A stretch of 38,274 nt of DNA, from IMG/VR virus record IMGVR_UViG_3300034356_002301, positions 1-38,274 of that record; one strand, written 5' to 3'. The DNA is from a virus. Shown here piece by piece: positions 5,488 to 34,632 of this stretch. Below the pieces are notes generated by a model that saw only the letters and a program-made list of their open reading frames with translations, had not been told where the DNA came from and ran no database searches. The translations under genes and the position numbers were made by a program. Each line of letters starts with the position of its first letter. Positions within the stretch are counted from its first letter, which is position 1.

Positions 5488-5499
5488 CTGTTTCCTTTC

Positions 5500-6332: not shown

Positions 6333-9300
6333 TCATCGTTTTTTTGGTTTCGGTTTGACATATTTTGGTAGTCCAGCAAGGGACTCTGCGACAGATTTTA
6401 CCTTGTCTGACTCACTATTCTGGCTGGCTTCTGACACATTGACAGCGGCAGAAGGTAGATCCATTTCTGTGCCCGTTCCCCAATTGAGTATTGAACCGTC
6501 AGGGTTACGGAAGTTTTGAAGGTTGTTGATGGCGTTACTTTGGGTGCCCGGGGTTTCGGTAGTGCTGCTGGTAGTGCCGCCTGTGGTACCGCCACCAGTC
6601 GTGCCGGAAGCGGCTGCGGCTTTTGCCCGCGCTGCGGCCTTGACTTGCTGCATGGGGGAGGTCGGCGTACTTTGCGGCATACCATCCGTGTACGCATTGG
6701 CGGCATCACCGACAAGTTCAACATGCCAATCTTCGCCCGGTACGGGAAGCCCGAGTCCAAATTGCGAGAGAAGTTCACGCTGTTTGTCGGTGAGGTTTAC
6801 ATCTGCGGCCCTACCGAACTCATGGTTAGAGGTTCCTGGCACCGCCGCAAGTGCGCCGCCCGCTTGGTAGTCGGCGTAAGCCGCTTCCTGTTCTGCCCTA
6901 GTTCGGAAACCTGAGTTGAATGAGATAGGTTCGCCGGAAGCCTTAGCGAGTTGTAGCAGGGCATTGGCAAGCGGCGGCTGGAATCGCAACAAAGTGTTTT
7001 CATCTGGGGCGAACCACTCTGTTTTGCTGGTTCCCTGTTTACCGCCCTGTGAGAAGTCGCCCGTAGCCTGGGGGTTTGTTGGGGCATCTTCGGGCACTTC
7101 GTACACACCCATGCGCTTGCCACGCTCAACCATTTGCCAGAACCTTTCTTTGGCTTGCTGTTGGTTGCCTGTATTGATGGGTGTTGCTGTTACATCTTGC
7201 CAAGGGATGCCGTCTTGGTAGCCCGCCGCATCCCATCCAGAACCGCGTAGCACTTCAACCTGTTCCTCTGGGGATTTGCCTACAGCGTTAGGCAGGATGC
7301 CGGGAATACCTGCCCCTGCGCCCCATTTCTCGCCTCGCAAGAACGCTGCGGTCGCCTTAGCCGCAGTCGCGGGGCTACCAAACTCCGGTGCTTCCATATG
7401 CGGGCCTATGTTCAACCAATTGTGATAATCGCGGGCTTCATAATCGCCCGATGCGTAGCCCTGCTCTGCCAGCACCCAACCGCCAACAACCTTTGGGTCA
7501 AGGCCGGTTTCTTTAGCAAGAACTTGTGCGAAAGTGCGTTGTGATTTTGACAAACCGGGTGCTGAAATCTTTGCGCTACCGCTTCCAAACGCCTTGACTT
7601 TTTGGGCACGGATCTTCTTGGCAAAGGCAACCTGACGCTTACGGGGAACATTCTTCATCGGTTCAATGCCCGCGCCTGCCGGGATGCGCTCGGCTGGGGG
7701 CGTGTTCGCGGGCTGATCCCTGTAGGTCGTGATCGGTGTCTTGGGCGTGTAGCCAGGCTGCGTAGCGTCGTAGTTGTAGCCGCCGCTTGACAATGATGCC
7801 TGTGTGGTTCGGGGGGTGTTGCTTAGACCTTCGCCTAATGAATCGCCAGCATTGCCGGTTTGTGCCAGCATCTTCTTTGCCTGCCTGTAGCCCGGGTATT
7901 CGGTCCCGCCCCATCTTTGCATGTATTGCTGTTTTACCTGATCTTGTTCGTCATAACGGGCTTGTACGACTTCCTGTTTGATCGTTGAATCGTTGGGCAA
8001 CGGTGCGCCTACCTTCTTTGCGTACTCCACGATCTGACGATTGAGTTTTTCTACCCTGTCGGAGCCATATTTGTTCATGCCCGAAAGTTTGATGTACCGT
8101 TTTGCCAATCTTTTTTCTTCGGCAGTACGAGGTTCGCCCGACAAACCTTCTGCCTCTTGTGCCCGGCGTTCGGCAGCCAGTTTTCGGCCAACATCGTAAA
8201 GACTTTGATTCTTGCGGCCTCGGAAAGTGACACGCGGGTACTTGCCCCTGGCCGTAGTCTGAGCGTCCTCGCGGGCACGGTACAGGCGGTCAAGTTCCTG
8301 TTCCTGCTGCTTTCCTTCTACGGGTTCCGGGGTTAAGGCAAACAGGTTGCGTCGGATGCGGTCGCGGGTCAGGTTCGGATCGTCGCCAGCCTTCGGTTCT
8401 CTGCCGGGTGCGTTGGAGAAGATACTGAGGGGTTTCGTAAGATCAAACCCGTCGAGGCTGAGTTCGGGTGCGTCCTGCTCACCTTGGATAATTTCCTTCG
8501 GTGAGTAGCCGGTTTCGCGCAATATCTCGCGGGGAGGGGCGGCAAGCAACAGGAATTCTTCAATCCATTGCCCGACCTTTGTTTTCATGCCCGGGTCAGG
8601 ATTGGTAATGTCATCGTCTGGGTCAGACAGGCGGTTGCCGTACTGGTCTTTTTCACTTAGGAAGATTCGGGGAGCGCCGGAGGTCAGGGGCACTACTGCC
8701 TTGAACAAGTTACTGATGAGATCGCCTTCTTTTGAGAAGCCTGCTTCCATAAAGATATTGCCCGCGATTCCGGTACGGCTGAGAGGGGAAAGCATCGTCG
8801 GGTCGCCGTCCGGCCCGCCGTAAAGAACCGCTACCGCCCAATCATTCATCCAGCGGGGGTCGTAGTTCATCAGCCGCTCGAGGATTTCCGCGTTGAATTG
8901 TCCAAACATCGTTGCCAGTTGCCAGCGAACCGGGTGACGCTTGGGGAAGGTGCGAAGTGTCCAATCTAGCGAGAACCGGACAAATGGGTAGAAGAAAACG
9001 ACGCTGCCGATTTCGCGCTCGTAGCCGGGCTTCAAGTCGGTCCAGTTGCCGTAGAGTTCGTCAAGGTTCTTGGCGAGTAGCTGACCGGCTTCCATGCCTT
9101 CCCTTGAGTTGAGCCACTTGATCTGCTCGGCCCGGTTCATCTTCATAAGGATTCCCGAGGACCGTTCGATTACATCGTAGTTGCCCTGAATCGCCTTGGC
9201 GGTACGGCGCAAGGTAGACAACTCACGGTCGAGTTCGGCAAGCAATCCTGCCTCACGGATAAGGCTACCCTTCCACCTGTCAAACTTGCCCAACTGCTCG

Positions 9301-12300
9301 AGCGCAACGGTTTCTTTGACCATTCGCCACCCTGGGTATTCACGCTCTACCTTGAGCGCGGCGTTTATGTCCTTTTGGGCAGTTTTGGCGTTGCTGTATT
9401 CGCGGGCTATTCCGAGACTTGTACCTGCCAAATGTGCTTGCCCGCGAGCAACTGATGTGTCGGGGTTCTTGCGGTTTGCTGCCGCCTCGCGGTAGGCGCG
9501 GATCAACCTTCTGGGGTTCGGGTTGTCGGAAACTTGTACGAGTAGTTCTGCTATCGGCTGAGCAAGTGCCCATGAGGGAGAAGTTCCAAGTACCACGCGG
9601 GAAGTAAAGCGGTTGAGTTCATAAAACGCCTTCATTAGGCCCGTAGGCATATCCTTCATGTGGGCTTCAATCTTGAGCGGCCCTTCATCTACGAGGACAT
9701 ACATATCGCCTTCGCCCTCTGTGGCTAGGCGGTCGGTCAGAATATCCTCGTCGCTGCGGTACTTCTTCGCATCATCGGATGAAATCTCCCGAATCCCGTC
9801 CGTCACCTTGCCGTCATTGGAATCTACGGCCCGGCTAATCGGTCCAAGGTTTGCCGGGTCGGTGAGCATCCGTTGGTTGAGTAGCACTTTGCCGGTCGGG
9901 TCTATTTCACCGTTCTTGACGCGCCGATAGAATCCCGCCTTAGAGTCAACAATGACCTTGCCCTTGTCCTTGCCTGTAGTGTGACGAGCGACGGCCTGTG
10001 ACATTAGCCATTGGGTCTTGCGGGTGTTTGCCAAAGCGTCGTTTGCTTTCCTAACGGTGTCGAGGAACGCTTTTTGGGAGCGGTCTACTGTGCCTGACCG
10101 GGAAAGGCTGCCGGTCTTGACCTTGGGGGCGGGGCTACCAAATACTGAATTGAAGCCCGGGTTCCCAGAAGGTATGCCCGGGTCTACCGCTTCGTTGCCG
10201 GTAATGAAGAATCCCGAACTCATAATGTTGGCTTCGCTGGCTTCGCGGTTGAACTCGTCAAACACTACCTCGTACTGCTTGCGGTATTCCCGCAACCTGG
10301 CTTCCTTTTTGGCACCTTCGGCCATTTGGATAGTTGCCCGGATTTCGGCAGTACGGAGTGCGGCGGCGTTGTCCATGACTGCCAGTTTCCGCTCTTGCGT
10401 TATGGCAGCGATTTCTTCCATTACTAGCCGCTTCTGTTCGCCGTCTGGCAAACTGTCCCGTTCTTCTTGGAGCCGTTTCAGTTTGTTGTCGTATGCGGCT
10501 ACCTTTGTAGCGGCGCTCTGTCCGGCCTTGACACCCTTGCCTCGCTCTTGACTAAGCCGCTGTTGGGCATTGAGGATTGCCAAGGTGTCCGGCTTGGCGG
10601 TTTCTTGAAGCGCCTTGATTTCGGCCTCTAGCGCGTCAATCTTTGCGTAGTCGGGGCCGGTGCCTAGTTTCTCGTCGGCGCGACGGACTGCCGCCTTGCG
10701 CTCGGCGGGGGTCAGTCGGAAAGCAATCTCATCTTGGAACGCCTGGGTGTTTTCGATGGCTGCGGCTACCCGCTTGGCGGCGGCTTCCTTGCGACCCTTG
10801 AGTTCTTGAACATGCGCTCGAAGGGGTTCAAGTCTGGGATCGGGCTTCACATACAGATCCTTGATCCGCTTTTCGTGTGCCCTGATCTTCTTCTTTTCCT
10901 CGCCAAAGGCTCGTTTGGCCTTGTCACGCTCGTTGCGCTGTACCGTCTTTTCTTTTTCGATTTCCTCAAGCCGGGCCTTGATTTCTTCCTGCCTCTTAGC
11001 GCCCGGCTTCTGACGGGCTGCCTTCTTATCGGACTGCTCCAAACTGTCGAGTGCCCTGCGGCTCCTGCTGATTTTCAGTAAGTTCTCGTTCAACCGATCC
11101 AGCGTGACCAAATCATTGCTTGCCCTAGCCGCTGCCGCCTGCTCCATGAGGTCGGTTTGCTGCGCGTCGAGTTCGGCCCGTTTTGCGGCGGTGTCGGTTA
11201 CGCCTGCGGATTCCCCGGTGTTCCCGTCCCGTTCATCCCGTAATGCTCTGGCTTCGGTGTCGAGTTCTCCAATACGGTTTATAGCTTTGTATTGGTTATT
11301 AGCAAATGCTTGTTGCCGACCTTCGGCGTTCACCTTGTCTATCTCTGCCTTGATAGCCCGCCCTTCGCTTTGAAGCCGTACCCGTTCGCGGGCATCCCTG
11401 GTATCAAGTTTTGCTTGCTTGATCTTGAGTTGCTTTTCAGCCTTTGCTAATGCTGCCCGGCGATTGGCTACGGTGCCCTTTAGACCCGTCAGCACTTGAT
11501 CGTCAGCGGCGGCAAGTTCCTTTGTACCAATGGCTTCTGGGCGAATCGGGTCTGCTTGATCCGTCAGTTGCGCGTAGGTAATGTTGGCTTCCAGTTGATC
11601 GGCCCGGCGTTGCTCGGCTATAACTTTTGCGGCTTCCTCCGGGGTCTTGGCCTGTAGCCGTATCGTGTCCTCCCAAGCATCCTGCGCTACTTTGCTTGCC
11701 TGCCTTGCTTTAGCCCACGCCTGAGCAAATGCGTTGGTAAGTCCCGCGTTCGTGCCGTCGAACAGTTCCGGCGTGTTCAGAATCGCGTTGGCAACTCTAG
11801 CGTCTGCGCTACCGGGTTCTACCTTGCGGCTTACTGCGGCTACTTCGGCAAGTAGGTTAGGCCCGGGCTGTAGTTTCTTGTGGGCAATCCAGCCGATCTT
11901 GTCACCGATGCCTACGGGGGCAATCGTTTCTGCTACTACCTTGGCCTGATCCGGTGTCATACCCTTAGTAGCAGCGGTTACTTCTGCTTGGTACAACTCC
12001 TTGTCTTTCTTGTAGACAGCCCGGATGCCCGGCTGCCGGTTCAACTTCTCAACACCCTCGCGCCATTCCCTTGTGACCTTGCCGAGTATCCAATTACTTT
12101 CACCCTCTGCCCGACCAAACACGCGGGAGGCGTACCAGTCAAGTTTTTTCTTGTTCCAGTTGCGCTCAAGGGTGGGCAGACCGACTGCGCCGCCTAGTGC
12201 GGAATCCGTAGCCGTGCGACCGGCGAACCGAACAGACTTGCCTACAGCGGGTCGGAGTATGTAGGCCGCGCCCATTGCGTTGAGCAGTCCGTAATCATTT

Positions 12301-14018
12301 TTTGTTGCTTCGGCAATCTTGTCTACATCGCCAGAGGTATACACATCTATCATGCGCTTTGTCTCGAAGATCATTTCTTCTCCGAGGCGCTTTACGGGAG
12401 CGGTAATGTAATCCCCGCCTGTTTGGTATTTCGGAGTGTCAGGGTCTAGTGCGCTGAAAGCCCGGGAGCCGGTCATTCCCACATTGGCGGCTAAGGTGAA
12501 GGGGAAGGTAGCGCCTGAGATTAGACCTCGAGCAGAGGTTTCAAGCGTCGTGCCGGGATCATCTATGAAGCCCTTAGCGGTGCCTTCTATAAAGTCCTTG
12601 GTGTAGCCGGGGCCGACATAGGACTCCGTGATTGCCGCACCACCCGTTACCGCCCCTGCGCTAATGCGGGCCTTCTGATAGCGCGGTGACTTGGTGAACT
12701 TCTGTAATGCCTGTAGCGCCTTGTAACTTCTGGGTGCGTTAGCAGCAGCAACGGCGGCTGCTTCTGCGGTTTGGGCTGTTGCTACCGCTGCCCGGGATTT
12801 CGCCACAGCGCCAGGAAGGGTTACTAACGCTCGCCCTGCCCTAAAGGTTGGCAGTACGCTCATAAGGTCTATGGTGTCGCCTACATCTTGGTTGTCTTGC
12901 GATTGGATTGCCACGGCAACTTCGCCTAGAGAGTCAGCATTAGCAACAGCCTCAATCTTTTCCTTGACGGGATCTACCGCGCCACGATAAGCGCCCTTCG
13001 CCATCCCCACAATTGCTTTGTCAATACCTTGGGCTTCGGCATCCCGCATTGCTTGTTCCTCGCGGGCATCTATCGTGCCGTACTCACGAACCGTGTTGAG
13101 AGCAATCTTGCGGGTCTTTGCGTCGGTTTGTTCCGCCTTCTTGATTAGGGCTTGCGCCCTGTTTTCTGCGGCCCGGGCGTTGCTCAATACCTTGTTGTAC
13201 CGATCAACCGACTTCCCGGGCTTTATGAACTTGCCATTGGGGGTGAGAAAAGAATCAAGTTTTTTGATTCGCCTGTCTCGTTTCTCAATCCAATTGTTTG
13301 CCTGCTTGTGAATCTTTTCAATGTCTGGCAAACCGCCGTAGGGATTCTCCCTGGCAATAGGCATTTCGCCTTCTGCCGCTTCTTTATAAGTCCCTTTGGA
13401 GAACTCGCCTACCAATAGGGCGGCGTTTCTAGGCTTGTTGAGATTGGTGCGAACCCTTCTTGCCGCGTCTGCGCCCTCTTGTTTGATCGTTTTTTCTACA
13501 ATGCTGTCAATGAGGGGCTGCGCCTGCTCAACTACCCGATCCCGAGTTTGCTTGCGAAGCTCTGACCGGACGGTGCCGGACTTCTTCATGCCTTTTTTTA
13601 GTTGCCCGATTTCTTTGCCAACATCAATGTCTGGGAAAGAACTGGCTACGGAGATATTGCGAATTCTGCTTTGCGTTGTAGCAGCCGGTGATTTGCCTGA
13701 CCTCTTGCGAAGGGCATTTAGCCTTTGCTGTGGAGTCGGAGCGGGCGGGCCGACGAAACTGCTAGACCCGCTGCTTGAACTACTACTTGAACTTCCGCTG
13801 GAACTTCCGCTTGGTGAGGGAGGACCGCTAATCGGTGGAACATAACCGGGTGCCATCGGAGGATGCCAGCCCGGAGCTTCGGGTTTTGGCTTCGTGCTGC
13901 CATCAACCCAATCTGGCAATCCAAAGGGGTCTTTTTTCTTTTTAGCGTGGCTACGCTCCCAAAAAAGGTCTAGGTCAGCATCCTCATTCCGCCACCGCTT
14001 GCGGTTTTCTTCAAACAT
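6333..14018 (-). CDS. giant internal/ejection-type virion protein with two cell-wall hydrolase domains
   Basis: A 2561-residue protein, by far the largest here. The N-terminus is charged with a Ser/Gly/Pro-rich stretch (about 55-100). Helical regions follow, with a long Lys/Glu/Ala-rich coiled coil at about 850-1240. A region with several hydrophobic segments (about 1500-1900) could meet membrane. Near 2165-2290 a glucosaminidase-like fold is suggested by AKETGLDPKVVGGWVLAEQG and NWLNIG. At about 2340-2440 an M15 peptidase shows SGFRTRAEQ, SNHEFGRAADVNL (His 2399, Asp 2406) and EDWHVEL (His about 2432). The tail is Thr/Gly-rich. It follows two medium internal-type proteins, as in podovirus ejection gene sets, so it probably helps DNA cross the cell wall at entry. 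Confidence 0.8.
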   Translation of the reverse strand: MFEENRKRWRNEDADLDLFWERSHAKKKKDPFGLPDWVDGSTKPKPEAPGWHPPMAPGYVPPISGPPSPSGSSSGSSSSSSSSGSSSFVGPPAPTPQQRLNALRKRSGKSPAATTQSRIRNISVASSFPDIDVGKEIGQLKKGMKKSGTVRSELRKQTRDRVVEQAQPLIDSIVEKTIKQEGADAARRVRTNLNKPRNAALLVGEFSKGTYKEAAEGEMPIARENPYGGLPDIEKIHKQANNWIEKRDRRIKKLDSFLTPNGKFIKPGKSVDRYNKVLSNARAAENRAQALIKKAEQTDAKTRKIALNTVREYGTIDAREEQAMRDAEAQGIDKAIVGMAKGAYRGAVDPVKEKIEAVANADSLGEVAVAIQSQDNQDVGDTIDLMSVLPTFRAGRALVTLPGAVAKSRAAVATAQTAEAAAVAAANAPRSYKALQALQKFTKSPRYQKARISAGAVTGGAAITESYVGPGYTKDFIEGTAKGFIDDPGTTLETSARGLISGATFPFTLAANVGMTGSRAFSALDPDTPKYQTGGDYITAPVKRLGEEMIFETKRMIDVYTSGDVDKIAEATKNDYGLLNAMGAAYILRPAVGKSVRFAGRTATDSALGGAVGLPTLERNWNKKKLDWYASRVFGRAEGESNWILGKVTREWREGVEKLNRQPGIRAVYKKDKELYQAEVTAATKGMTPDQAKVVAETIAPVGIGDKIGWIAHKKLQPGPNLLAEVAAVSRKVEPGSADARVANAILNTPELFDGTNAGLTNAFAQAWAKARQASKVAQDAWEDTIRLQAKTPEEAAKVIAEQRRADQLEANITYAQLTDQADPIRPEAIGTKELAAADDQVLTGLKGTVANRRAALAKAEKQLKIKQAKLDTRDARERVRLQSEGRAIKAEIDKVNAEGRQQAFANNQYKAINRIGELDTEARALRDERDGNTGESAGVTDTAAKRAELDAQQTDLMEQAAAARASNDLVTLDRLNENLLKISRSRRALDSLEQSDKKAARQKPGAKRQEEIKARLEEIEKEKTVQRNERDKAKRAFGEEKKKIRAHEKRIKDLYVKPDPRLEPLRAHVQELKGRKEAAAKRVAAAIENTQAFQDEIAFRLTPAERKAAVRRADEKLGTGPDYAKIDALEAEIKALQETAKPDTLAILNAQQRLSQERGKGVKAGQSAATKVAAYDNKLKRLQEERDSLPDGEQKRLVMEEIAAITQERKLAVMDNAAALRTAEIRATIQMAEGAKKEARLREYRKQYEVVFDEFNREASEANIMSSGFFITGNEAVDPGIPSGNPGFNSVFGSPAPKVKTGSLSRSGTVDRSQKAFLDTVRKANDALANTRKTQWLMSQAVARHTTGKDKGKVIVDSKAGFYRRVKNGEIDPTGKVLLNQRMLTDPANLGPISRAVDSNDGKVTDGIREISSDDAKKYRSDEDILTDRLATEGEGDMYVLVDEGPLKIEAHMKDMPTGLMKAFYELNRFTSRVVLGTSPSWALAQPIAELLVQVSDNPNPRRLIRAYREAAANRKNPDTSVARGQAHLAGTSLGIAREYSNAKTAQKDINAALKVEREYPGWRMVKETVALEQLGKFDRWKGSLIREAGLLAELDRELSTLRRTAKAIQGNYDVIERSSGILMKMNRAEQIKWLNSREGMEAGQLLAKNLDELYGNWTDLKPGYEREIGSVVFFYPFVRFSLDWTLRTFPKRHPVRWQLATMFGQFNAEILERLMNYDPRWMNDWAVAVLYGGPDGDPTMLSPLSRTGIAGNIFMEAGFSKEGDLISNLFKAVVPLTSGAPRIFLSEKDQYGNRLSDPDDDITNPDPGMKTKVGQWIEEFLLLAAPPREILRETGYSPKEIIQGEQDAPELSLDGFDLTKPLSIFSNAPGREPKAGDDPNLTRDRIRRNLFALTPEPVEGKQQEQELDRLYRAREDAQTTARGKYPRVTFRGRKNQSLYDVGRKLAAERRAQEAEGLSGEPRTAEEKRLAKRYIKLSGMNKYGSDRVEKLNRQIVEYAKKVGAPLPNDSTIKQEVVQARYDEQDQVKQQYMQRWGGTEYPGYRQAKKMLAQTGNAGDSLGEGLSNTPRTTQASLSSGGYNYDATQPGYTPKTPITTYRDQPANTPPAERIPAGAGIEPMKNVPRKRQVAFAKKIRAQKVKAFGSGSAKISAPGLSKSQRTFAQVLAKETGLDPKVVGGWVLAEQGYASGDYEARDYHNWLNIGPHMEAPEFGSPATAAKATAAFLRGEKWGAGAGIPGILPNAVGKSPEEQVEVLRGSGWDAAGYQDGIPWQDVTATPINTGNQQQAKERFWQMVERGKRMGVYEVPEDAPTNPQATGDFSQGGKQGTSKTEWFAPDENTLLRFQPPLANALLQLAKASGEPISFNSGFRTRAEQEAAYADYQAGGALAAVPGTSNHEFGRAADVNLTDKQRELLSQFGLGLPVPGEDWHVELVGDAANAYTDGMPQSTPTSPMQQVKAAARAKAAAASGTTGGGTTGGTTSSTTETPGTQSNAINNLQNFRNPDGSILNWGTGTEMDLPSAAVNVSEASQNSESDKVKSVAESLAGLPKYVKPKPKKR

Positions 14019-17035: not shown

Positions 17036-19543
17036 CTAGATGACGATGCTCTTCTGGAACCTACGCCGGAATGTCTGCGTAGCTGTAGTGTTCTGGCCGT
17101 GACAAGTTATTTGAATTGTCGGAGTGCCTGTCAAGTCATTTGTTGTCAAAGCATAAATCGCTCCTGATGTAGTCGTGGCGATAGCCTGTCTCGCATTTGC
17201 GGCAGTAGGAGCGTAGCGATTGATACTCATCTGCAAATAGGCGCTGCCTGAAGAATGAGTGACAATGGCGGCAGATATTTCCACAATCGAAAAGTTTGTG
17301 GCTGAGTTTGTGAGAGTCGCGCCATCGGTGTGGGTCAGGTAAGTGACTCCATCAACTACGAGGGTGAATACATAAGTCCTTGCGGCCCCAGAGTTGTTTA
17401 TCAGGTATCCCTTTACTTCTGTTTCGATTGCCTTCCCTGAAGCTAAAGCAGTATTCGGTATAAAAGTGGCAATCGTCTGGGCGGAAGTAGAGTTTACCGA
17501 TATCGAAGTATCTGAGAGGTTGGTCGCATCTACAATAGGACCAGTTGCTCCCGTTGCTCCGGTGCTACCTGCCGGGCCGCTTGGTCCCGATGGACCGCTA
17601 GGACCAGAAGGACCGCCGCCTGCCGCTACCCATTCAAGATTCCAGTCATCGGCATCAACCTTTGCCAGAACCTCGCCTGTGCTGCCGCCCGGAGGAACGG
17701 GGAAGGCAATAAAGGATATGCCCGAATCAACCCAATCAGTACCGTCATAGGTCCAAATATCAAAGAGTGGTGAGCCGTCAATCTCGATGTAGTAATCACC
17801 GGATGAGCCGGGATCAGTCGGGGGTCCGTAGTCAAAGGTAAGTGTGCCGCTGCCCCCCGCAGGACCGGATGGGCCGCTGGGTCCGGTGGCTCCTGCCGTA
17901 CCCGGTGTTCCGCTTGCTCCCGCCGCTCCGGTAGCCCCGGTTACTCCTGTCGGTCCCGTTGCGCCTGTAAGTCCTGTGGGTCCGCTCGGTCCCGTGGCTC
18001 CTGCGATGCCCGCTGGTCCCGATGGTCCGCTTGGACCCGCTGCGCCAGTCACACCAGTTGGTCCTGTAGCTCCGGCTGGTCCGGTTGCGCCTGTAACTCC
18101 TGTGGGTCCGGTGGCACCATCTGCGCCTGCTGCCCCGGTTACGCCAGATGGTCCTGTCGCCCCGGTAAGTCCTGTGGGTCCGCTAGGGCCGGTTGCGCCG
18201 GTTGTGCCTGCGGCTCCGCTTGGCCCGGTTGCTCCCGTTGCTCCGGTGCTACCTGCCGGGCCGCTTGGTCCCGATGGACCGCTAGGGCCAGAAGCACCGC
18301 CGCCTGCCGCCACCCATTCAAGATTCCAGTCAGAGGCATCAACCTTTGCCAGAACTTCGCCTGTGCTGCCGCCTGCCGGGACAGGGTAGGTCAAAAGGCT
18401 AACGCCGCTTGCGGTCCAATCCGTACCGTCGTAAGCCCATATTTCCCAGATTACGGGTGTGCTATCTAGCTCTACATAAACTGAGCCGCTGCTGGGTGAA
18501 TAGGTCGGCGTTCCGTTGCCGAACACAATGTCTCCCGCTTCACCTTCGGGTCCAGAAGGACCGGATGGGCCGGAGGGTCCGGTAGCTCCGGTTACTCCAG
18601 AAGGCCCGGTGGCTCCTGTGGCTCCTGCCGTACCCGGTGTTCCGCTTGCTCCTGGTGTCCCGCTCGCCCCCGTTGCTCCGGTTACTCCGGTTGGCCCGGT
18701 CGGGCCGGGAACCGTTGAGGCAGCGCCGCTTGGCCCGGTGGCTCCTGCGGGACCGCTCGGCCCCGTTGGTCCTGGCACGGTTGAAGCCGCACCAGTAGGG
18801 CCAGTTGCGCCTGCGGGTCCGGTTGATCCGACATTTCCAGAGGGCAAAAAGTCCACTGAAAGAAAGCCCGGCGAAACACCAGGAATGTCACCTGAGATGT
18901 AGTCAACGCCGATTTTGTAGTAGCCCGTTGCTGCGGTAACGCTTGTAACCGCCAGAACCATTGTTGCTGAGCTTGTAGCGGTTTGGATAAGAAGGTTGCC
19001 CTTTATTGCGCTGGTTGAATCATCCCAGGTGTCATACCATGCGGTTTGACTAGTGGTATTGAGGTCTTGGTTGTCAATGAATACCTGAGTCACCGAAGCA
19101 GCCGTTGAGTTATTGAGCTTTAGGTTGCCTGCGCCGGGGTCAGAATCAGCCGTTGTGCTGTTGAAGGTGTACCTAAGCCCACCGCGAGCGCCAGAAGGAC
19201 CGGATGAACCGCTCGGGCCGGTGGCTCCTGCGGGTCCAGAAGGCCCGGTGGGACCAGAAGGCCCGGTGGCTCCGGTGGCTCCGGTAGGTCCGGTTACGCC
19301 AGTGGCTCCTGCTAAACCGCTAGGGCCAATAATTCCGCTGGGGCCGGTCGCTCCAGTGACTCCTGTTGGGCCGGTGGGACCAGCAAGCCCGCCGTATGGA
19401 AGTGAGTTCCAAGCAGTTGCACCGTCACCAACCTTGAACTTGTCAGTGTCGGTTTCTAGCGCCATTTCACGCTCTGCCAAAATAGGGTTATTGGCAATCC
19501 AATTGGCTGCCGTGTCGCCTCTAAGTTGGATTCGTACCGCCAT
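17036..19543 (-). CDS. large collagen-like tail fibre
   Basis: An 835-residue protein whose ATG 19543 overlaps the upstream stop as TGATG. Residues 1-50 ([25 protein letters not shown]..., [17 protein letters not shown]) match the N-terminal attachment module seen in phage receptor-binding proteins. Several collagen-like Gly-X-Y blocks follow (GPTGPTG, GATGPSG), broken by a globular insert (about 120-240) and two related modules of about 70 residues containing YDGTDW and [11 protein letters not shown]. The last 160 residues form a beta-rich knob ending in [12 protein letters not shown]. Gly-X-Y blocks form trimeric stalks, so this is probably the main host-binding fibre. Internal DNA duplication is described separately. 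Confidence 0.85.
17544..17689 (-). repeat. 146-base direct repeat, copy 1 (fibre gene)
   Basis: This stretch matches 18228-18373 at about 140 of 146 positions by hand alignment, offset by 684 bases (228 codons, so in frame). It covers the end of a collagen block and the conserved [11 protein letters not shown]...EWVAAGGG linker. The collagen parts alone would give loose similarity, but near-identity through the non-collagen linker points to a recent duplication or gene conversion inside the fibre gene. Confidence 0.8.
18228..18373 (-). repeat. 146-base direct repeat, copy 2 (fibre gene)
   Basis: Second copy of the repeat at 17544-17689. The six differences I see are mostly third-position or single-residue changes (for example Ala/Asp and Ser/Asp swaps near the linker). 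Repeats of this length allow loss or gain of whole 228-codon fibre segments by recombination, a known route for changing fibre length and specificity. Confidence 0.8.
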
Positions 19544-19782
19544 CAGCCAATTCCTCCGTTGATACCACCGTCAAACAAAATAGAGGTTGAAGTGCCTCCG
19601 TCTACATTGACAAAACTTGCTCCGGTGGCTCCGGTGGCTCCGGTGGCTCCTGCGGGTCCGCTTGGCCCCGTAGCACCAGTAGCTCCGGTTGGCCCGCCAG
19701 CCGGTCCAGTGGGACCAGGTGCCCCGATAAGCACCTTTTCCCACGCGCTCGTAACGGGATTGTATTGCTTTATAACCGTCAT
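19543..19782 (-). CDS. small collagen-like fibre protein
   Basis: A 79-residue protein. ATG 19782 overlaps the previous stop as ATGA; the longer frame from 19851 would overlap the neighbour deeply. The first 20 residues ([20 protein letters not shown]) form a short strand-rich head, then about 35 residues of Gly-X-Y sequence (GPTGPAGG..., [10 protein letters not shown]), then a Gly-rich tail. It is a minor or linker fibre lying between two larger collagen-like fibres, and may join them into one appendage. Confidence 0.72.
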
Positions 19783-20525
19783 GTGAGTTTGACCGCTTTT
19801 TGCGTTTTGCGCGTGAAGGTCTGAGTGGCTGTTGTATTTTGACCGTGACAATAAAGTGCCAACGATCCTCCATCCGTAAAATCGTTTGCCGTGTTATTCC
19901 AAATCTGACCGCTGGCAGTAGTTGTCATATCTTGGCGAGTGTTAGCAGTAGACGGACTTGAGCGATTTAGGGTCATTTGAATGTGACTATCAAATTGATC
20001 GTAGACGGCTACAACAATTTTTACATCTACAACCGAGGATGTAGCCGAGTTTGTAAGAGCGGCACCTTCTGTGTAAGTCAAATAAGTTGTGCCATCAAAT
20101 TGAACTGTCCAAACATAGGTTCTACTCGCACCTGAATCATTCTTAAGCAAACCTCGCACATCAAGTTCAAACATTGTGTTGGCTGCTAGGTTCGAAGTTG
20201 GGGCAGCAAGTGCGACTAACACAGGCGTTGTTGAGTTCACATTGTAAGAAGTGCTTGTAACTAGGGCATCGTCAAAACCTGCGCCCGTTGGACCGGAGGG
20301 ACCGGATGGACCGGATGGGCCTATACCAACATCCCCTGCCTCTGTGGTGTCAGCCCAAAGGCTATCTGTATCGTCTGGAGGCGTGTCGGAAATGATAATG
20401 CCCGGATCGCCCTCTGGCCCGGTAGGTCCGGTTGGCCCGGTAACGGCAACCTCAACTTTTTTGTCTAAGTATTCAAAGTTGAGCGTCGAAGCCCGGTCTG
20501 GGACTGTTCGATGCGGTAACTCCAT
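19779..20525 (-). CDS. tail fibre with short collagen stalks and knob related to the large fibre
   Basis: A 248-residue protein. Its start overlaps the upstream stop as TAATG. Two short Gly-X-Y stalks (VTGPTGPTGPEGDPG and [15 protein letters not shown]) flank a link with DTPPDDTDSLWADTT. The last 155 residues form a beta-rich knob clearly related to the knob of the large fibre: both share NSGA/SRTYV-type strands, a TYLT-H/Y-T-x-GAxLTNSAT segment and the exact [12 protein letters not shown] end. The paralogous knobs may trimerise alike or bind different receptors. Confidence 0.8.
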   Translation of the reverse strand: MELPHRTVPDRASTLNFEYLDKKVEVAVTGPTGPTGPEGDPGIIISDTPPDDTDSLWADTTEAGDVGIGPSGPSGPSGPTGAGFDDALVTSTSYNVNSTTPVLVALAAPTSNLAANTMFELDVRGLLKNDSGASRTYVWTVQFDGTTYLTYTEGAALTNSATSSVVDVKIVVAVYDQFDSHIQMTLNRSSPSTANTRQDMTTTASGQIWNNTANDFTDGGSLALYCHGQNTTATQTFTRKTQKAVKLT

Positions 20526-24874: not shown

Positions 24875-26146
24875 CTAGGCAGTTACGCTCGGAGCATCGT
24901 CCGTGGCGAACTGCAACTTGCCGAGGCGGTTCGGCGCTACAGCACCAAGGGTGGCGTACCACCCGAGGTATGCCTGCCAGGTTGCCTCATGCGTACCGGC
25001 AACCGAACCGTTCTTGAGTTGGAACACAGTACCATCCTGGGGGCTTTCGAGGAAGCCCGGACCCCACTGTTGGAACCAACGAAGCGCCGACTTGTCAATG
25101 GCGAACACATTACCCTTGGGGCAATCATCGTCAATGACAACCGGAACCTCACCGCTGCCAGAAGCGACCATGATCGCGGAGTAACCTCCGTGGATCTGGA
25201 CGGCCTGGTTGTTGGTGAACCGCTTGGTGGATTGGAAAGTGTCAGCAAGCCTGCGACGGATGCCGCGACTCGTAACAAACACTTCCGTATCACCTTGGCC
25301 GGTCTGACCAACATCGTCTGAGATAAGCTCAAACGAGGTTTCGCCAGCGGTGGCCGGTGAAGCGGCCTGAGTACCGACATTACGAACCTGGGAGTTCCAG
25401 AACTCGTTTCCGGCGGTGCCTGAGTTGATTGAGTGGAGCGTCCTGCTGGTAGCGACAATGCTCTGCATTCCCTGCATCTCCTGGCCGTATGAACCGGCGA
25501 GGTAGATACCGAATGTAGTAGCAATGGTGCCACCAACCGCTGCCGAGAAGGTAACGGTCTTGTTGGCTGCGTCCAGAGCAGTAACGAGATTTCCCGAACC
25601 GCCCGCCAGAGTGCTTGCGTCGGTGCGCCTAAGCACATCAACGGGGTCGCCCACATGGAGGTACTGGATCGAATCAACCGTGACAGGTCCGACCGTAGTA
25701 GAAGCCGTAGCCGCGACAGAAGCAAGCAGACCATCTCCGGTTCCCCAGATTTGACGGTTTACATCCTTCTTCATGTCCTTGGTCGCACCCTTGACTTCGG
25801 CATCAAGCAGGTTCACAAAGGCTCCGGTGTTGGAACTTGTGGCTCTGATTGAAGCGTCGGTCAGTTCAATGGACTGGTAGTGACGGGTGATCGGAATGAT
25901 CGCGTCCTCCCAGACTTGAGTGCCAGCAACCGGCAGAACTCCGCCGTCACCCCTGGAACCACGACCCCTGTTTCGGGCCTTGTGAACCGGGACGATTGCC
26001 CGCCGACCGTGATGGTCTACGGTGAACTCCGTCTGCCGTTCGATTTGGTCAATCATGTAGGACTTGTGGTTGAGTTGTTCAACGACAGGTCCGACATACA
26101 GATCCTTGAGGATCGCGTCTGCGTTTGTCAGTGTTTGAGTAGCCAT
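24875..26146 (-). CDS. major capsid protein
   Basis: A 423-residue protein from ATG 26146 with AGGAG nine bases upstream. The N-terminus (TLTNADAILKDLYVGPVVEQLNHKSYMIDQIER) and the following basic loop (VPVHKARNRGRGSRGDGG) are typical of tailed-phage coat proteins with the HK97 fold. Later come the ITRHYQSIELTDASIRA and EVKGATKDMKKDVNRQIWG spine-helix region, and beta-rich A-domain strands up to the end. The gene follows the scaffold and precedes a strong terminator, an order usual for a highly made capsid protein. The specific coat subfamily is not identified. Confidence 0.85.
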   Translation of the reverse strand: MATQTLTNADAILKDLYVGPVVEQLNHKSYMIDQIERQTEFTVDHHGRRAIVPVHKARNRGRGSRGDGGVLPVAGTQVWEDAIIPITRHYQSIELTDASIRATSSNTGAFVNLLDAEVKGATKDMKKDVNRQIWGTGDGLLASVAATASTTVGPVTVDSIQYLHVGDPVDVLRRTDASTLAGGSGNLVTALDAANKTVTFSAAVGGTIATTFGIYLAGSYGQEMQGMQSIVATSRTLHSINSGTAGNEFWNSQVRNVGTQAASPATAGETSFELISDDVGQTGQGDTEVFVTSRGIRRRLADTFQSTKRFTNNQAVQIHGGYSAIMVASGSGEVPVVIDDDCPKGNVFAIDKSALRWFQQWGPGFLESPQDGTVFQLKNGSVAGTHEATWQAYLGWYATLGAVAPNRLGKLQFATDDAPSVTA

Positions 26147-27280: not shown

Positions 27281-27593
27281 TGGTTGCCATCGCAGAAGCG
27301 GCTTCGCGCATTTGCTCTACTGCCTTTTCAAACTCTTGCTGACCAGGGGAGGGTTTATCTTCCCCAAGGGCTGCCTTGGAGTAGTGATTGCCGGTGCCTT
27401 CCGTAACACCACCGGCTTCCAACGCCTGCTTTTGGCCGGGTGAAACTTCGCCTACGGTATGACCCTTGAGCGCAGTAGCAACTTCTTTGAGTTGACCTAT
27501 TGCGGTATCAGGAAGATCCCTGGGCGGGTTCTCCATAAAGTCATTGAGTGCGGCAAGAAATTTGCCTGTTCCGGGGTCTGGGAGATTAGGCAC
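27264..27593 (-). CDS. small helical protein next to the portal
   Basis: A 109-residue protein from GTG 27593, overlapping the portal end by eight bases, with AAAGGA five bases before the start. The N-terminus is Pro/Asn/Gly-rich, the centre has a short helix (GQLKEVATALKG) and the C-terminal half is helical and charged (QEFEKAVEQMREAASAMA). No recognised domain. Its position between portal and scaffold is often taken by a small head or maturation protein, but there is no motif to back a specific call. Confidence 0.62.
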   Translation of the reverse strand: MPNLPDPGTGKFLAALNDFMENPPRDLPDTAIGQLKEVATALKGHTVGEVSPGQKQALEAGGVTEGTGNHYSKAALGEDKPSPGQQEFEKAVEQMREAASAMATNGNGA

Positions 27594-29589
27594 TTGATTC
27601 CTTTGCTTGTTGTTTGTCTAGCTCTGCTTGGAAAGCCATACTTTCTTCTTCGGTAGCCAACTGTTGATCTTCGGCTGCCTGTTGTTCTTGGGCTTGCTGT
27701 GCGATCTGTTGATTGACCATTTCTACCATGTATGTACGGTGTGCGGCAACATGAGCGTCAAAAATCATCTTTAGTTGATCGTCAAGGCCATCGTAACGCG
27801 AGGTTTTTTGGAACTCAGTGTGTTCCGCAATGTGGAACTCATGGTTGTCAAACGAGTTGATACCCACCGGATTACCTTGTAGCAACTGGCGGTTTTCACG
27901 ATTGACTTGCTTGGCATCTTCGCTAAAGCCTTCAAACAACCGATCCAGACCGCCAACCTCGTAATCCTTGAGGAACTTGCGAAGGTTGCGCTCATCAATA
28001 GGTACGCCGTATTGAAGCATAAGCCCGAGAACTTCGGTCATGGCTGCTTGCTTGGCTGCCTTGGAGCGGGGCATTTGCGATCCGGCCTGTACCTCTACTT
28101 GCGGATCTTCCCCAAGCATTTCACCCTTGAAAGCAAAAATGTCCCAATTGCCGTCCTCACCTGCGATTTTGATGAGGCGTTCGTCGGAGTTGTAGGCAGC
28201 CCGGTTTTTGAGGATCTTTGTACCCAAGTGACCGAGCGATTGTTCCATCTGCTGAATTTCCGGGCCGAGCCTAGTTTCATCTGCCTCTTGAAGCAGGTTG
28301 ATTGCGCTTGCGGCTGTAACGCCGGGCGGGACCGTTGCGCGGCTGACCTCATGCATGCCCGAGATTTCTTCAATGCTTTTCTCAATCCGAGCCACTTCAT
28401 TTTCTACATAGACAGGGATGCTGGGGGGCTGCATGAACTGCGGAATGGGATCTTGAACCGTTGAATCGTATTCGACCAACTCACCAGGGGTGCCGTCATA
28501 GCGCACATTGGCTTGGCGGGAAATGGCAACAGCCGGGTTTCCAAGCCTGCGGGCATTTTCTTTGATCTGGGTGCGAATAATGTTTAGGTCTTGCTGAGGC
28601 CCGCGAAGATCGGTAACTACAGCGTGACTCCAAAAGCGTCCCGGCACCTGTACCGAGCCAAACTTGACATAGGGCATCGGGTCAAACGGTTCCTCTGAAA
28701 CAAGCAGGTTGTCGTTGGCCCACACAGCCCGCCAGCCGTTCGGGTACTTGCTGCTGGGTTTACACCAGTATTCCCGCACCTTTACGCCACGATAGGAGCC
28801 GGTAGCGCCTCCGGTGACATAAACCCCACCTGTCCAGCCTTCTGAAACGGCAGAAGGGATCTCAGAATCGGGAATGGGATCGTAGGGAGCGCCGGATGCG
28901 TCGGCAGGATAACGGCGGCGGCAGTATTCGACTGAGCGCACCTTTTCTTCTATTAGCCACTCAATATCGTCCATAGAAGTAGCCAGCGGGTCTGGAAAAA
29001 TCTCAAATACTGACATTGCTTCTACGCAAAGGTCGCCTGCGGCAATTTCCTTGACTTCTACTTGTTCAAGGATTTCGGGCGGTAGTTGTTGCGCGGCTTC
29101 GGCGCGTAGCGGGGCACCGTTTTCATCAGTTAGCGGGCCGTCCGGTCCCTCGAGGTATTGAATCTTCTCACCCTTGGTTTTATCCCAATAGATTTTGAGA
29201 AATCCGTCAGAACACACATCTGCCCACAACAAAGCCATGAACAACTTGCTTTGAATAGCAAGTGCTTCCCAATCGTTTTCCAGTATGCGCTCACCTACGC
29301 GAGCAGCGTCAATAGCCTTATCATCGGCACCTTGCGGCGTAGCCGAGAACATGGGGCGATTCTTCGATTTCCGGGCAACCCTGGAAGTAACAACAGGAGT
29401 AATGCGGTTATCGGTTACAAGCTGGCGGCGGGAATCAATTCTTGGGGTTGATACTCGACCGCCTGCGTACATGACCCATTGTTTGCCCGCGAAGAAAGCG
29501 CGGTTGAGCATCCAATCGGGTTCATGGACGAATCGAGCAGATTTGGCTTGCTCGTATTTCTCATTGAGTTCTGCGACATTTACACTCAT
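27586..29589 (-). CDS. portal protein
   Basis: A 667-residue protein from ATG 29589 (ATGA overlap). The N-terminus fits the portal pattern: helical start, then EPDWMLNRAFFAGKQWVMY, TDNRITPVVTSRVARKSKNRPMFSATP and WEALAIQSKLFMALLWADVCSDGFLKIYWD. The centre has wing strands and the clip/stem region (LRGPQQDLNIIRTQIKENARRLGNP, then EISGMHEVSR). The C-terminus is a long Gln/Glu-rich helix (about 600-667), like the barrel of P22-type portals. Portals form the dodecameric DNA gate and packaging motor dock. Its place between terminase and scaffold agrees. Confidence 0.85.
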   Translation of the reverse strand: MSVNVAELNEKYEQAKSARFVHEPDWMLNRAFFAGKQWVMYAGGRVSTPRIDSRRQLVTDNRITPVVTSRVARKSKNRPMFSATPQGADDKAIDAARVGERILENDWEALAIQSKLFMALLWADVCSDGFLKIYWDKTKGEKIQYLEGPDGPLTDENGAPLRAEAAQQLPPEILEQVEVKEIAAGDLCVEAMSVFEIFPDPLATSMDDIEWLIEEKVRSVEYCRRRYPADASGAPYDPIPDSEIPSAVSEGWTGGVYVTGGATGSYRGVKVREYWCKPSSKYPNGWRAVWANDNLLVSEEPFDPMPYVKFGSVQVPGRFWSHAVVTDLRGPQQDLNIIRTQIKENARRLGNPAVAISRQANVRYDGTPGELVEYDSTVQDPIPQFMQPPSIPVYVENEVARIEKSIEEISGMHEVSRATVPPGVTAASAINLLQEADETRLGPEIQQMEQSLGHLGTKILKNRAAYNSDERLIKIAGEDGNWDIFAFKGEMLGEDPQVEVQAGSQMPRSKAAKQAAMTEVLGLMLQYGVPIDERNLRKFLKDYEVGGLDRLFEGFSEDAKQVNRENRQLLQGNPVGINSFDNHEFHIAEHTEFQKTSRYDGLDDQLKMIFDAHVAAHRTYMVEMVNQQIAQQAQEQQAAEDQQLATEEESMAFQAELDKQQAKESSA

Positions 29590-29909
29590 GCGGCTCCGTC
29601 AGGCGGTTGGCCGTTGGATTCTACGATTTGTCCTACCAAGTGTAGTTCGTCGTGGATACTGTTGTCGGGAAGGGGAGGCCCGGTTGTTGGTGAGGGAGGA
29701 ATGTATTCGGGGCGTTGAATGCGTTCCAGCAAATTGTTTCGCTCTACCATCCACTCCTGTTCACGCTGCCTAGCGTGTTCATCGGTGCGAATAATCAAGT
29801 CCGTTAGCATTTTGGCATTGAGGTCAGCCGACTTTCGGGCTTCCCGATTGTTCCAAACCAAAGCGCCTACTACGCTAATTATTACTGCTGTGGTCAATAT
29901 TTCAACCAT
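29586..29909 (-). CDS. membrane-anchored coiled-coil protein
   Basis: A 107-residue protein from ATG 29909, with AAGGA four bases upstream; the frame's longer start at 30002 would overlap the repeat-protein gene. One N-terminal membrane helix (ILTTAVIISVVGALVWNN) is followed by a charged helix (REARKSADLNAKMLTDLIIRTDEHARQREQEWMVERNNLLERI) likely to be coiled coil, and a Pro-rich tail. Small proteins of this build occur in phage late operons as holin-like or virion-membrane accessory proteins. Position just before the portal gives no further clue. Confidence 0.6.
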   Translation of the reverse strand: MVEILTTAVIISVVGALVWNNREARKSADLNAKMLTDLIIRTDEHARQREQEWMVERNNLLERIQRPEYIPPSPTTGPPLPDNSIHDELHLVGQIVESNGQPPDGAA

Positions 29910-29919
29910 GTAATCCTTT

Positions 29920-30294
29920 CTACGCCAACCCGGTAACGGCAAGGGCACCATTTGAGTTGCGAAGTAGCCCGCCATCCCATGTAGGTGAATCTGCTGCGCC
30001 AACTATAAGGTAGCCGTTGGCAGTAGTAGTAAAGCCCGGGACTACGCCGTTTACTGGTGTGCCGGATTCTGTGATTACCAAAGCACCATCGGGGGTTCTA
30101 ACAAATCCCCCGGAAAAAGCAGCATCAGTCGTAGTCTCAGTGACAAGCAACCGTCCATCTGGGTCAGTTATAAAACCGGGCACAATCCCGTAACCAGCCC
30201 CTACATCGTCGGTAGTTACAGCCAGGCTACCGTCAAGATCAGTAACAAAACCCGGGACTACGGTGCCAAAGGTTTCAGTTCCCGTCAGCGCCAC
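29920..30294 (-). CDS. five-repeat protein (about 23-residue GF..DG.L.VT units)
   Basis: A 124-residue protein from GTG 30294, overlapping the previous gene by 20 bases, with AAGG six bases upstream. It is almost entirely five tandem units of about 20-27 residues, each with a core of GF, a short spacer, D/N-G, then L-x-V-T: GFVTDLDGSLAVT, GFITDPDGRLLVT, GFVRTPDGALVIT, GFTTTANGYLIV, GLLRNSNGALAVT. The pattern suggests a beta-rich solenoid or small blade array. Such repeats can serve as a capsid decoration or assembly part. No family recognised. Confidence 0.7.
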   Translation of the reverse strand: MALTGTETFGTVVPGFVTDLDGSLAVTTDDVGAGYGIVPGFITDPDGRLLVTETTTDAAFSGGFVRTPDGALVITESGTPVNGVVPGFTTTANGYLIVGAADSPTWDGGLLRNSNGALAVTGLA

Positions 30295-30763
30295 TCGCTA
30301 CCTTCCGCTTTGCCTTGCTGATTTTTTCAGCCTTGGAGCGGTTGGAACGGAGTTGCTTGATTTCTTTGTCATGCGACTCCGGGCCTTGAAGTTGGGGCTT
30401 GCCTGCGGGCCGTTTTACCGGATGGTCAATCAAGGTGCCGACCGTATGGGTCAGGTCAGAAATAGCGCGGTCCTTTTTGCGGGCCTCGCGCTCAGATTCC
30501 TTGAGTTGTTCCCGGGCTGCCTCGAGTTCGGCCTGGTATCGCTCAACATGATCCATGCCGAGCATTCGGGCACTTTCCCTGACGCAATCCTCACAAATTA
30601 CGATCTTGTCAAGGTACGGCGTGACTTCTGACTGAGGATCAGTAACAACCGGCCCTTCGTAAATCGCCTCAAAGTCCACATATTCAGGTTGCGGCTCCCG
30701 AACCATCGGGGGCTGAAAGCAGACCGAGCATCGGATGGGTTTGTCTGCGCCCGCGAGTCTCAC
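30275..30763 (-). CDS. zinc-ribbon plus coiled-coil protein
   Basis: A 162-residue protein from GTG 30763 (GTGA overlap). It has CSVC at 12-15 and CEDC near 57-60, a four-cysteine zinc ribbon, followed by a charged coiled coil at about 72-115 (RYQAELEAAREQLKESEREARKKD) and a basic tail (KIKQLRSNRSKAEKISKAKRK-like). It looks like a nucleic-acid or head-associated adaptor. It lies in the small-gene cluster after the terminase; its role is not readable. Confidence 0.65.
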   Translation of the reverse strand: MRLAGADKPIRCSVCFQPPMVREPQPEYVDFEAIYEGPVVTDPQSEVTPYLDKIVICEDCVRESARMLGMDHVERYQAELEAAREQLKESEREARKKDRAISDLTHTVGTLIDHPVKRPAGKPQLQGPESHDKEIKQLRSNRSKAEKISKAKRKVASGADGN

Positions 30764-31339: not shown

Positions 31340-32857
31340 CTAGGCGACGGGGATTTCGGGGCGCGATACTGACTCAAAGTGTTCGCGGGCCATTCGTTCC
31401 TGTTGTGTCTCTGTAACTCGTTCAAACTCATGGGGTAGGTACGGGCGGCTCATTACCGCAAGGCGCGTGGCATCCATAAGGTGATCGTGCGACTTGACGG
31501 GAGCTTCTTTACCGTCATTTTCACCCGCTCGAGGGGGTTTCTTCCAACGGTAGGTGCGAATCTCTTTCAGGAAGTTCACGCAGTTTTCACCGATCAAAAG
31601 GCGGTCGGTTTGAAATCGCTCGCGTACACGGTTAATTCCAGCGGTAACAGAGTTTTGCCCGGGAATAGTGACTACGCCGTGGTCGGCAAACTCCATTTGA
31701 TCTGAGCGTCCAGTCTGAGAGTTCCGGTTCCTGGCCGCAGGGTCAATGACATAATAAATCGGCTGGCAATCGTAGTGCGCGTTGGTCTTGTGGATTTCGT
31801 CGCACACTTCCCGAATGGTCATATCCTTGAAATATCCTTCCTCAAACATGACCATTTTATCGTCAGAGGTCAGGTAGTACCAGCCGACCGCACAGGCATA
31901 ACGGATGCCCGGGTCTATGGAGACAACGACATTGACATTCTCGGGCAAGGGGTCTACCGGGGGCACGGTGTGTTCTTCTCTTTTGAAGTCCTTGTAAACG
32001 AGTCCTGACATAGCGACGAACTTGCCTTCTTTACGAGCAAGTCTTTCTTCATTGGAAAGCCCGCGAAGTGCCTCTACCTTCTCAGCCTCCCCGAGCCAAG
32101 GGTTATCGTCCATATCCACAATGACCAGGCCCATGCCGTCGTGCTGAATGATCCCGCCGTTGTCCTGGGCCAACTCCATTGAGTCAGAGAGTTCGTCGTA
32201 CATATGGGTCAGACCGTTTACGGGGGTCATGGTGAATAGCAGATCCCCGCGCCGACGCATAACTCGTAGCCGGGCTTCCTGTAGGTGTTCTCTGCCCGGT
32301 TCTTCGTCCATATGAACGCGATCTAGGGTCGAACCTCCCCACTGCTGGGCTTCCTGTTGAAAAGTCTTGAACGAGTAGTAGGTGCCGTTCTGTAGGTGTA
32401 GAACATGGTTCAACTTGTCATAGGCCGACTTCCAGTTACCTCCGACCAACTGGTTTGGCGGCAGCCACTCCCTCAATTTCTCAAAAATGAAGTCCTCAAT
32501 TTCTGAGCGACCCTGAGCGGCGATCCGGCAGCGGAACGGTGCGTTGTACCGCTTGAATTGCCGCAGGTGTTCGGGCACCATATCCGCGTCAATGCCTTGG
32601 ATAATATCGTCCACGATTCCCCAAGTAGTCTTGCCTGACTGGTTGCCTCCAATGTAGGCGATACGGCGGTCTGTAAAGCCGTGGCCGATCATCTGCTTGG
32701 GATGAACAGGCCCGAAGGCCGGGTTGTTGTAGCGAATCAGAGGATTGTGCTTTACCGAATCCTCGAGGTTCTTGATTGCCTGAATCGCACGGTCCCGCTT
32801 GGCGGGCGGCAGAAGGTCAATGCGATCCTTGGCAATCGTGAGTGCGCTTTTGGTCAC
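31340..32857 (-). CDS. terminase large subunit (packaging ATPase and nuclease)
   Basis: A 505-residue protein if started at GTG 32857, which overlaps the previous stop as GTGA; a TTG at 32878 is the other option. The ATPase part has Walker A GGNQSGKTT (about residues 70-78) and Walker B-type VHMDEEPG, followed by the coupling motif TMTPVNG. The C-terminal nuclease has VVSIDPGIR (first acidic residue), YVIDPAARNRNSQTG (second) and HLMDATRLAVM (third), the RNase H-like set. The enzyme drives DNA into the procapsid at the portal and cuts unit lengths. The HTH protein upstream may be its small partner. Confidence 0.9.
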   Translation of the reverse strand: MTKSALTIAKDRIDLLPPAKRDRAIQAIKNLEDSVKHNPLIRYNNPAFGPVHPKQMIGHGFTDRRIAYIGGNQSGKTTWGIVDDIIQGIDADMVPEHLRQFKRYNAPFRCRIAAQGRSEIEDFIFEKLREWLPPNQLVGGNWKSAYDKLNHVLHLQNGTYYSFKTFQQEAQQWGGSTLDRVHMDEEPGREHLQEARLRVMRRRGDLLFTMTPVNGLTHMYDELSDSMELAQDNGGIIQHDGMGLVIVDMDDNPWLGEAEKVEALRGLSNEERLARKEGKFVAMSGLVYKDFKREEHTVPPVDPLPENVNVVVSIDPGIRYACAVGWYYLTSDDKMVMFEEGYFKDMTIREVCDEIHKTNAHYDCQPIYYVIDPAARNRNSQTGRSDQMEFADHGVVTIPGQNSVTAGINRVRERFQTDRLLIGENCVNFLKEIRTYRWKKPPRAGENDGKEAPVKSHDHLMDATRLAVMSRPYLPHEFERVTETQQERMAREHFESVSRPEIPVA

Positions 32858-33066
32858 ACGGTAAGTGTACGCATCCAAACCTTTCGATTCCCGGGCACCC
32901 TATCCAGACCCTTCATATGAGGACCAGCCATACACCAGTCAGGAACATCGTTCAAGTGGAGAAAATCAGTCTTACAACAGAAATGGTCTACGGATTCTTC
33001 CTTGGGATTTACCCCCGAGCGCCAATGTCTGACCGTCCGGGCCTGATCCTCCGGTACTAAACGCAT
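32854..33066 (-). CDS. small protein upstream of terminase
   Basis: A 70-residue protein starting at ATG 33066, with AGGAAG eight bases upstream. It has two adjacent cysteines (HFCCKTDFLHL) and a later WCMAG, with His residues nearby, so a zinc site is possible but not a standard layout. Its stop overlaps the terminase start as GTGA, so it is probably translated with it. A longer frame to 33246 would cover two other tiny genes and is rejected. Function unknown. Confidence 0.6.
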   Translation of the reverse strand: MRLVPEDQARTVRHWRSGVNPKEESVDHFCCKTDFLHLNDVPDWCMAGPHMKGLDRVPGNRKVWMRTLTV

Positions 33067-34561: not shown

Positions 34562-34632
34562 CTCGGGGTAGAGGACTCGAACCCCTATTGCCGGGACCAA
34601 AACCCGGTGTCTTACCGTTAGACGAACCCCGA
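34562..34632 (-). tRNA. tRNA-Gln (anticodon UUG)
   Basis: The minus strand folds as a full cloverleaf. The acceptor stem TCGGGGT pairs perfectly with ACCCCGA (34563-34569). The D-arm is GTCT/AGAC. The anticodon stem CCGGG/CCCGG holds loop TTTTGGT, so the anticodon is TTG (reads CAA). The T-arm AGGGG/CCTCT encloses TTCGAGT. The discriminator base is G and CCA is not encoded. The gene ends flush with a rightward gene at 34561 and starts flush with the stop of a small leftward gene at 34633, so no spare bases remain on either side. Confidence 0.93.

Follow-up and report, generated by a model that had tools for sequence, protein, structure and literature searches.

What does a small protein made largely of tandem repeats contribute to a virus that encodes it among its head genes, and do the repeats fold as separate units or together? 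We addressed these questions for a 124-residue protein encoded in a viral record of 38,274 bases, which is taken over its whole length and referred to here as the window. The gene, supported by its open frame and by orthologues, lies at 29920-30294 on the minus strand; the plus strand across this interval is riddled with stop codons. Translation starts at a GTG codon at 30294, every orthologue begins with MAL, and a likely ribosome-binding site read from the sequence, GGAAGG at 30301-30306 on the same strand, would leave a spacer of 6 nt to the GTG. The five units, each located by HMM and by profile search and all on the minus strand, are VVPGFVTDLDGSLAVT (unit 1, 30208-30270), IVPGFITDPDGRLLVT (unit 2, 30133-30195), FSGGFVRTPDGALVIT (unit 3, 30064-30126), VVPGFTTTANGYLIVG (unit 4, 29992-30054) and WDGGLLRNSNGALAVT (unit 5, 29926-29988).

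The motif G[FL]x[TRK][DTN]xxGxLx[VI], which is post hoc in that it was derived after the window protein had been seen, occurs at residues 15, 40, 63, 87 and 109, and of 100,000 shuffled versions of the protein, 99,970 contain no copy of it and the other 30 contain one. A unit HMM built solely from clade B, a divergent set of relatives described below, provides a test independent of the window sequence; it scores the window protein at 33.2 bits, against 9.0 bits for the best of 1000 shuffles, and separates just three of the five units as distinct stretches. All five are detected by a two-clade HMM and by an alignment-based profile search of genomes, the alignments behind both of which contain the window units. 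Motif, shuffles and clade B HMM thus agree that the five tandem units, first proposed in an earlier note on this DNA, are real, and the measured spacing of 25, 23, 24 and 22 residues is compatible with the unit length of 20-27 residues given there. Between orthologues, dN is 0.22-0.46 and dS is at least 1.6 in the eight of ten pairs where it could be estimated, which gives dN/dS values of about 0.07-0.25 for pairs with the window protein and for other pairs; by this measure the gene is under purifying selection.

The repeat gene was correctly placed by the earlier note between the terminase and portal genes, with a small gene on either side. The gene for the terminase large subunit (31340-32878; PHROG 2, E 1.6e-31), that for the portal protein (27586-29589; P22_portal, E 1.3e-11, and PHROG 156) and that for the major capsid protein (24875-26146; SU10_MCP, and PHROG 14242, E 8.5e-65) are all on the minus strand, as are the two small neighbours. 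The upstream neighbour (30275-30763) has, as read from its sequence, two CxxC pairs and a C-terminal half that is charged; it overlaps the repeat gene at the start of the latter and is kept upstream of this slot in relatives. Searches of Pfam and PHROGs gave nothing beyond weak coiled-coil-type matches for its product. The downstream neighbour (29586-29909), in which a hydrophobic N-terminus followed by an LLERIQRPE motif is seen by eye, had no significant family match in the same two libraries, and even distant relatives have a gene with this RIQ.PE-type motif directly before that for the portal. Elsewhere in the window, the minus strand encodes several collagen-like GPTG/GPSG repeat proteins at 17036-20525, a region in which a stretch of 169 bases is directly repeated at 17538 and 18222 with 92% identity, as well as a single 2561-residue open frame at 6333-14018, possibly a giant virion protein. 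A tRNA-Gln (ttg) gene is found at 34562-34632 on the minus strand, close to the end of the structural gene block at which the terminase lies.

Searches of Pfam, PHROGs and the PDB sequences gave no significant match to the window protein, and tblastn with this protein and with that of L064, a homologue about 36% identical to it, produced no hits among 50,697 phage records. Five-unit versions belonging to the same clade as the window protein (clade A) are present in nine other contigs, eight of them viral, with three of these 99% identical, and one from a Verrucomicrobia metagenome bin; in a further viral contig (L035/L047) the repeat gene is cut by the contig end. Orthologues within the window clade share 54-65% identity. 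The pattern GGFxRDxxGRLV retrieved nine stretches, all with exactly five units, which constitute clade B, and the two clades are homologous as judged by hhalign (probability 98.6, E 5.5e-16, 116 columns). The genes of the relatives adjoin terminase and portal genes in related podovirus-like contigs. Portal-based searches yielded 30 viral contigs, among them two of the nine clade B contigs; a five-unit gene is present in 13, a cut gene in one, and one to three units, spread over one or two frames, in six, while seven have the slot without units and three do not include the slot in their sequence. In L013, whose portal is 75% identical to that of the window, the two flanking genes abut with the repeat gene missing, and this record, a fragment, contains no repeat gene elsewhere. 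In L016 a different 94-residue protein (5407-5691) occupies the slot, and inspection by eye of the terminase-portal genes of Jasmine, Shocker, DS1, ctEqG8 and ctLwi270, relatives found via the portal, revealed no unit. A few candidates were set aside: the sole match to GFLRxxDGxLxVT in viral contigs (L021) is an isolated copy within an unrelated protein, and three of the 287 other genomes in the phylum of G001 gave matches, namely an RHS protein identified by eye (L111), an unidentified long frame (L112) and a sequence not readable as a repeat protein (L110). From these comparisons, the repeat protein belongs to a wider family that is absent from Pfam, PHROGs and the phage records searched.

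The number of units in this family is well supported as five. Exactly five are found in 22 contigs, 20 by HMM (10 from the window clade with the window included, nine from clade B, and L049) and two, L054 and L060, by PSSM. For L054 and L060 the fifth peak and the next score are 12.0 versus 3.3 and 7.9 versus 1.8, respectively. Compared with the maxima of 1000 shuffles, the weakest peaks lie above the 95th percentile (8.0 and 6.6) and below the highest value (17.0 and 13.1). The bare five-unit architecture recurs in two divergent clades, the window clade and clade B. The L049 protein consists of five units followed by a C-terminal domain of about 150 residues with no family assignment, and in L054 about 300 residues precede five C-terminal units in a protein of 413 residues. 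In the L060 open frame, units at residues 13, 39 and 61 are separated by about 225 other residues, likewise unassigned, from units at 289 and 311, and this sum of three and two is what would be expected if five units form one domain. The L060 gene follows the portal gene and the L054 five-unit gene precedes the terminase gene, so that neither is in the slot used by the window. The L049 and L060 proteins each had a single match in the phage records, which we rejected; the former (E 0.7) is to a protein that reads by eye as a PRPP synthetase, and the latter (E 0.07) covers only the inserted middle part. Units pair preferentially with the unit at the same position within each clade (rank 1) and show no such preference between clades A and B (diagonal rank 48 of 120). 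Because the clades are homologous and their units do not pair by position, the count appears to have been kept although the units were homogenised or re-amplified.

Other relatives carry fewer units, some of them below significance in the HMM scan. In L050 two units stand ahead of a β-helix spike-like protein (PHROG tail spike, E 3.2e-5; Beta_helix, E 0.0057, under the cut-off of that family), and L057 has two plus one units in successive frames, with one unit joined to a tail-fibre match (E 7.1e-4). The L056 record has three units across two frames, and single units are found in L059, in a 156-residue protein of L054/L055 and in the L017 record, where the unit (L088:1495-1869) is followed by about 100 residues with no assignment. 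Most of the fused domains had no family match in Pfam or PHROGs. Genes beside the portal in relatives include matches to glycosyl hydrolase 26 in L052 (E 6.2e-11), to a glycine-rich domain in L061 (E 3.8e-10) and to a tail fibre in L017 (E 3.5e-7).

The predicted fold is well supported. AlphaFold2 modelling of the L064 homologue from a 14-sequence alignment that includes the window protein gave a pLDDT of 93.0 and a pTM of 0.84, with four of the five models above 91, and DSSP assigns to this model five repeats of three short strands each, in keeping with the regular β structure anticipated in the earlier note. A run on the window protein itself with four sequences reached a pLDDT of 33.9 and was discarded. 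Each unit has the layout strand-(xG)-strand-(DxxG)-strand, and the sole invariant residue over 24 aligned units is the glycine that precedes Phe, Leu or Trp. Foldseek searches of the PDB with the L064 model matched no solved structure (best E 2) and VIA-align found none with Z ≥ 2 among 82 chains, results that do not prove a new fold. Matches of the unit profile to the PDB (3leq, insect paralytic peptides) span 10-15 residues and were taken as chance. The model suggests that the five near-identical β units probably fold into one compact domain with a shape unmatched among solved structures.

We consider it about evenly balanced whether the five units form a compact domain of an accessory protein of the virion, one that mounts possible adhesin domains in relatives. 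In such an arrangement, five repeats of one small unit, each made of a strand, a two-residue turn ending in Gly, a second strand, a D-x-x-G-type turn and a third strand, would build a single compact all-β domain. Five units would be needed to complete it, and its simplest form would be a closed ring or barrel with five-fold pseudo-symmetry; ring closure is inferred. As an accessory virion component, the bare domain of the window phage and of clade B may serve as a small decoration or cap, and in relatives where it carries other domains, or has them inserted, it may serve as a mount. Counting against a five-unit domain, the relatives with one to three units cannot form one alone. The low score of the window protein's own model, the lack of a family match for most fused domains and the location of the L060 and L054 genes outside the slot also speak against this reading. 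The protein is probably part of the virion because in related viruses these units occur on proteins that may serve attachment. The gene is near the terminase, portal and capsid genes and is absent from the L013 fragment, as may be expected of a dispensable accessory gene. A decoration-type structural role, proposed in the earlier note, is made plausible by the position in the head-gene block and by the fusions to tail-fibre- and spike-like domains.

A different origin would make the unit a YD-type β hairpin and the protein a shrunken or recruited piece of the RHS/YD repeat family with no link to virion decoration, a reading that we regard as rather unlikely. RHS_repeat matches 7 of 14 family members at E ≤ 0.1 (the cut-off is 22 bits, and the five clade B members with printed scores reach 22.5-28.1), YD_repeat_2x matches 6 of 14, and hhalign with an RHS protein from the same search gave 66% over 53 columns. 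However, no RHS match at E ≤ 3 came from the window protein or from the four further members of its clade that were scanned, and no solved RHS structure is among the Foldseek matches up to E 10. The window protein does not reach the PF05593 cut-off, contains no Tyr-Asp pair, and with 124 residues in five units does not form a large cocoon of many antiparallel strands, whereas published RHS domains are cocoons of roughly 100 kDa (PMC8765631). The family, described as unfamiliar in the earlier note, is therefore without a match in Pfam, PHROGs and the PDB for the window protein itself but not for its clade B relatives, which exceed the RHS_repeat cut-off; the match to a well-known repeat family that the note had named as counting against it was found in part, by way of clade B.

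Improbable, in our estimation, is a five-fold β-flower, a shallow barrel of five hairpins with ten short strands (cf. PF21784-PF21786). In the published account (PMC10584680), four to six hairpins make up a closed barrel of 8, 10 or 12 strands; its petals show four-, five- or six-fold symmetry, the loops on one face are nine residues long, and the hairpins carry [DNEQ]xxG at their tips. The five hairpins counted here agree with the five-fold version in that account, [DN]xxG tips occur in three of the five window units (DLDG, DPDG, NSNG), the loops between successive L064 units have 9, 10, 5 and 9 residues, and one of 14 members gives a weak Bflower match (E 0.076). That match, at 13.8 versus 25 bits, is the only one, so that no member of the 14 passes the cut-off, and hhalign against β-flower sequences from other genomes returned a probability of 0.1. 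Moreover, DSSP of the L064 model shows 5 × 3 short strands, with three per unit rather than two. We found no literature that links the β-flower to phage or a five-bladed protein to a phage decoration protein, a result that concerns the literature searched and not all print.

Doubtful to a greater degree is the view that the protein acts by itself as a small lectin or as a receptor-binding protein. A lectin family is weakly matched by one of the 14 members (BP39L, E 0.021), the PDB search with the unit profile met a lectin at no better than E 6, and hydrolase- and fibre-like genes stand beside the portal in relatives; these lectin matches are at noise level, however, and no binding-site motif was identified. 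The head plug, neck or head-completion protein suggested in the earlier note fits the position between terminase and portal but is very unlikely, since the close relative L013 lacks the gene and its flanking genes abut, the slot is also without units in six other slot-bearing contigs (7 of the 30 portal-bearing contigs in all) where conservation in all close relatives would be expected, and in some relatives spike- or fibre-like domains are joined to the units, a combination of position, absence and fusion that would favour an accessory decoration or mount.

A more specific and decidedly speculative form of the accessory-protein reading would have a single chain close into a fold that is new and five-fold pseudo-symmetric; one chain would then cap one penton with a unit for each capsid subunit and would mount single attachment domains, the one-unit relatives acting as homopentamers. 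If so, the fixed count of five would match the five-fold vertices of the capsid. More generally, this is a phage domain family with no match in the libraries searched whose repeat number is five across divergent architectures, and a count that stays fixed while the units are homogenised or re-amplified offers a clean case for what sets repeat number. If the domain is a virion mount, it would show podovirus-like phages swapping attachment domains beside the portal gene and would provide a small scaffold for displaying single domains.

Among known systems, RHS/YD repeats (PF05593, TIGR01643) resemble the family in a D-x-x-G-R-L turn unit of similar spacing, and clade B passes the Pfam cut-off; they differ in that the window protein, with five units only, has neither the family match nor the Tyr-Asp pair, and solved RHS structures gave no structural match. 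The β-flower (PF21784-PF21786; PMC10584680) is alike in its pseudo-symmetric hairpin repeats and the existence of a five-fold version, with its [DNEQ]xxG tip seen in three of the five window units, and unlike in that profile homology and a Pfam match above cut-off are lacking, the folds themselves being compared by description. The closest likenesses in fold are three uncharacterised phage proteins, A0A6J5PC56, A0A6J7X4R2 and A0A6J5MWA9, matched by Foldseek in the viral model library BFVD with a probability of 1.00; they have the same predicted fold (TM 0.59-0.67 by query length) and differ in sequence, with 16-18% identity. For the proposed role, head fibres are known at the capsid vertices of other phages (PMC12796354); in phage 7-7-1, a linker protein that contains an Ig-type domain is present five times on each pentamer, with fibre density at the centre of the pentamer. 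The window protein would be comparable to these head-fibre and vertex proteins of 7-7-1 as an accessory protein on an HK97-type shell.
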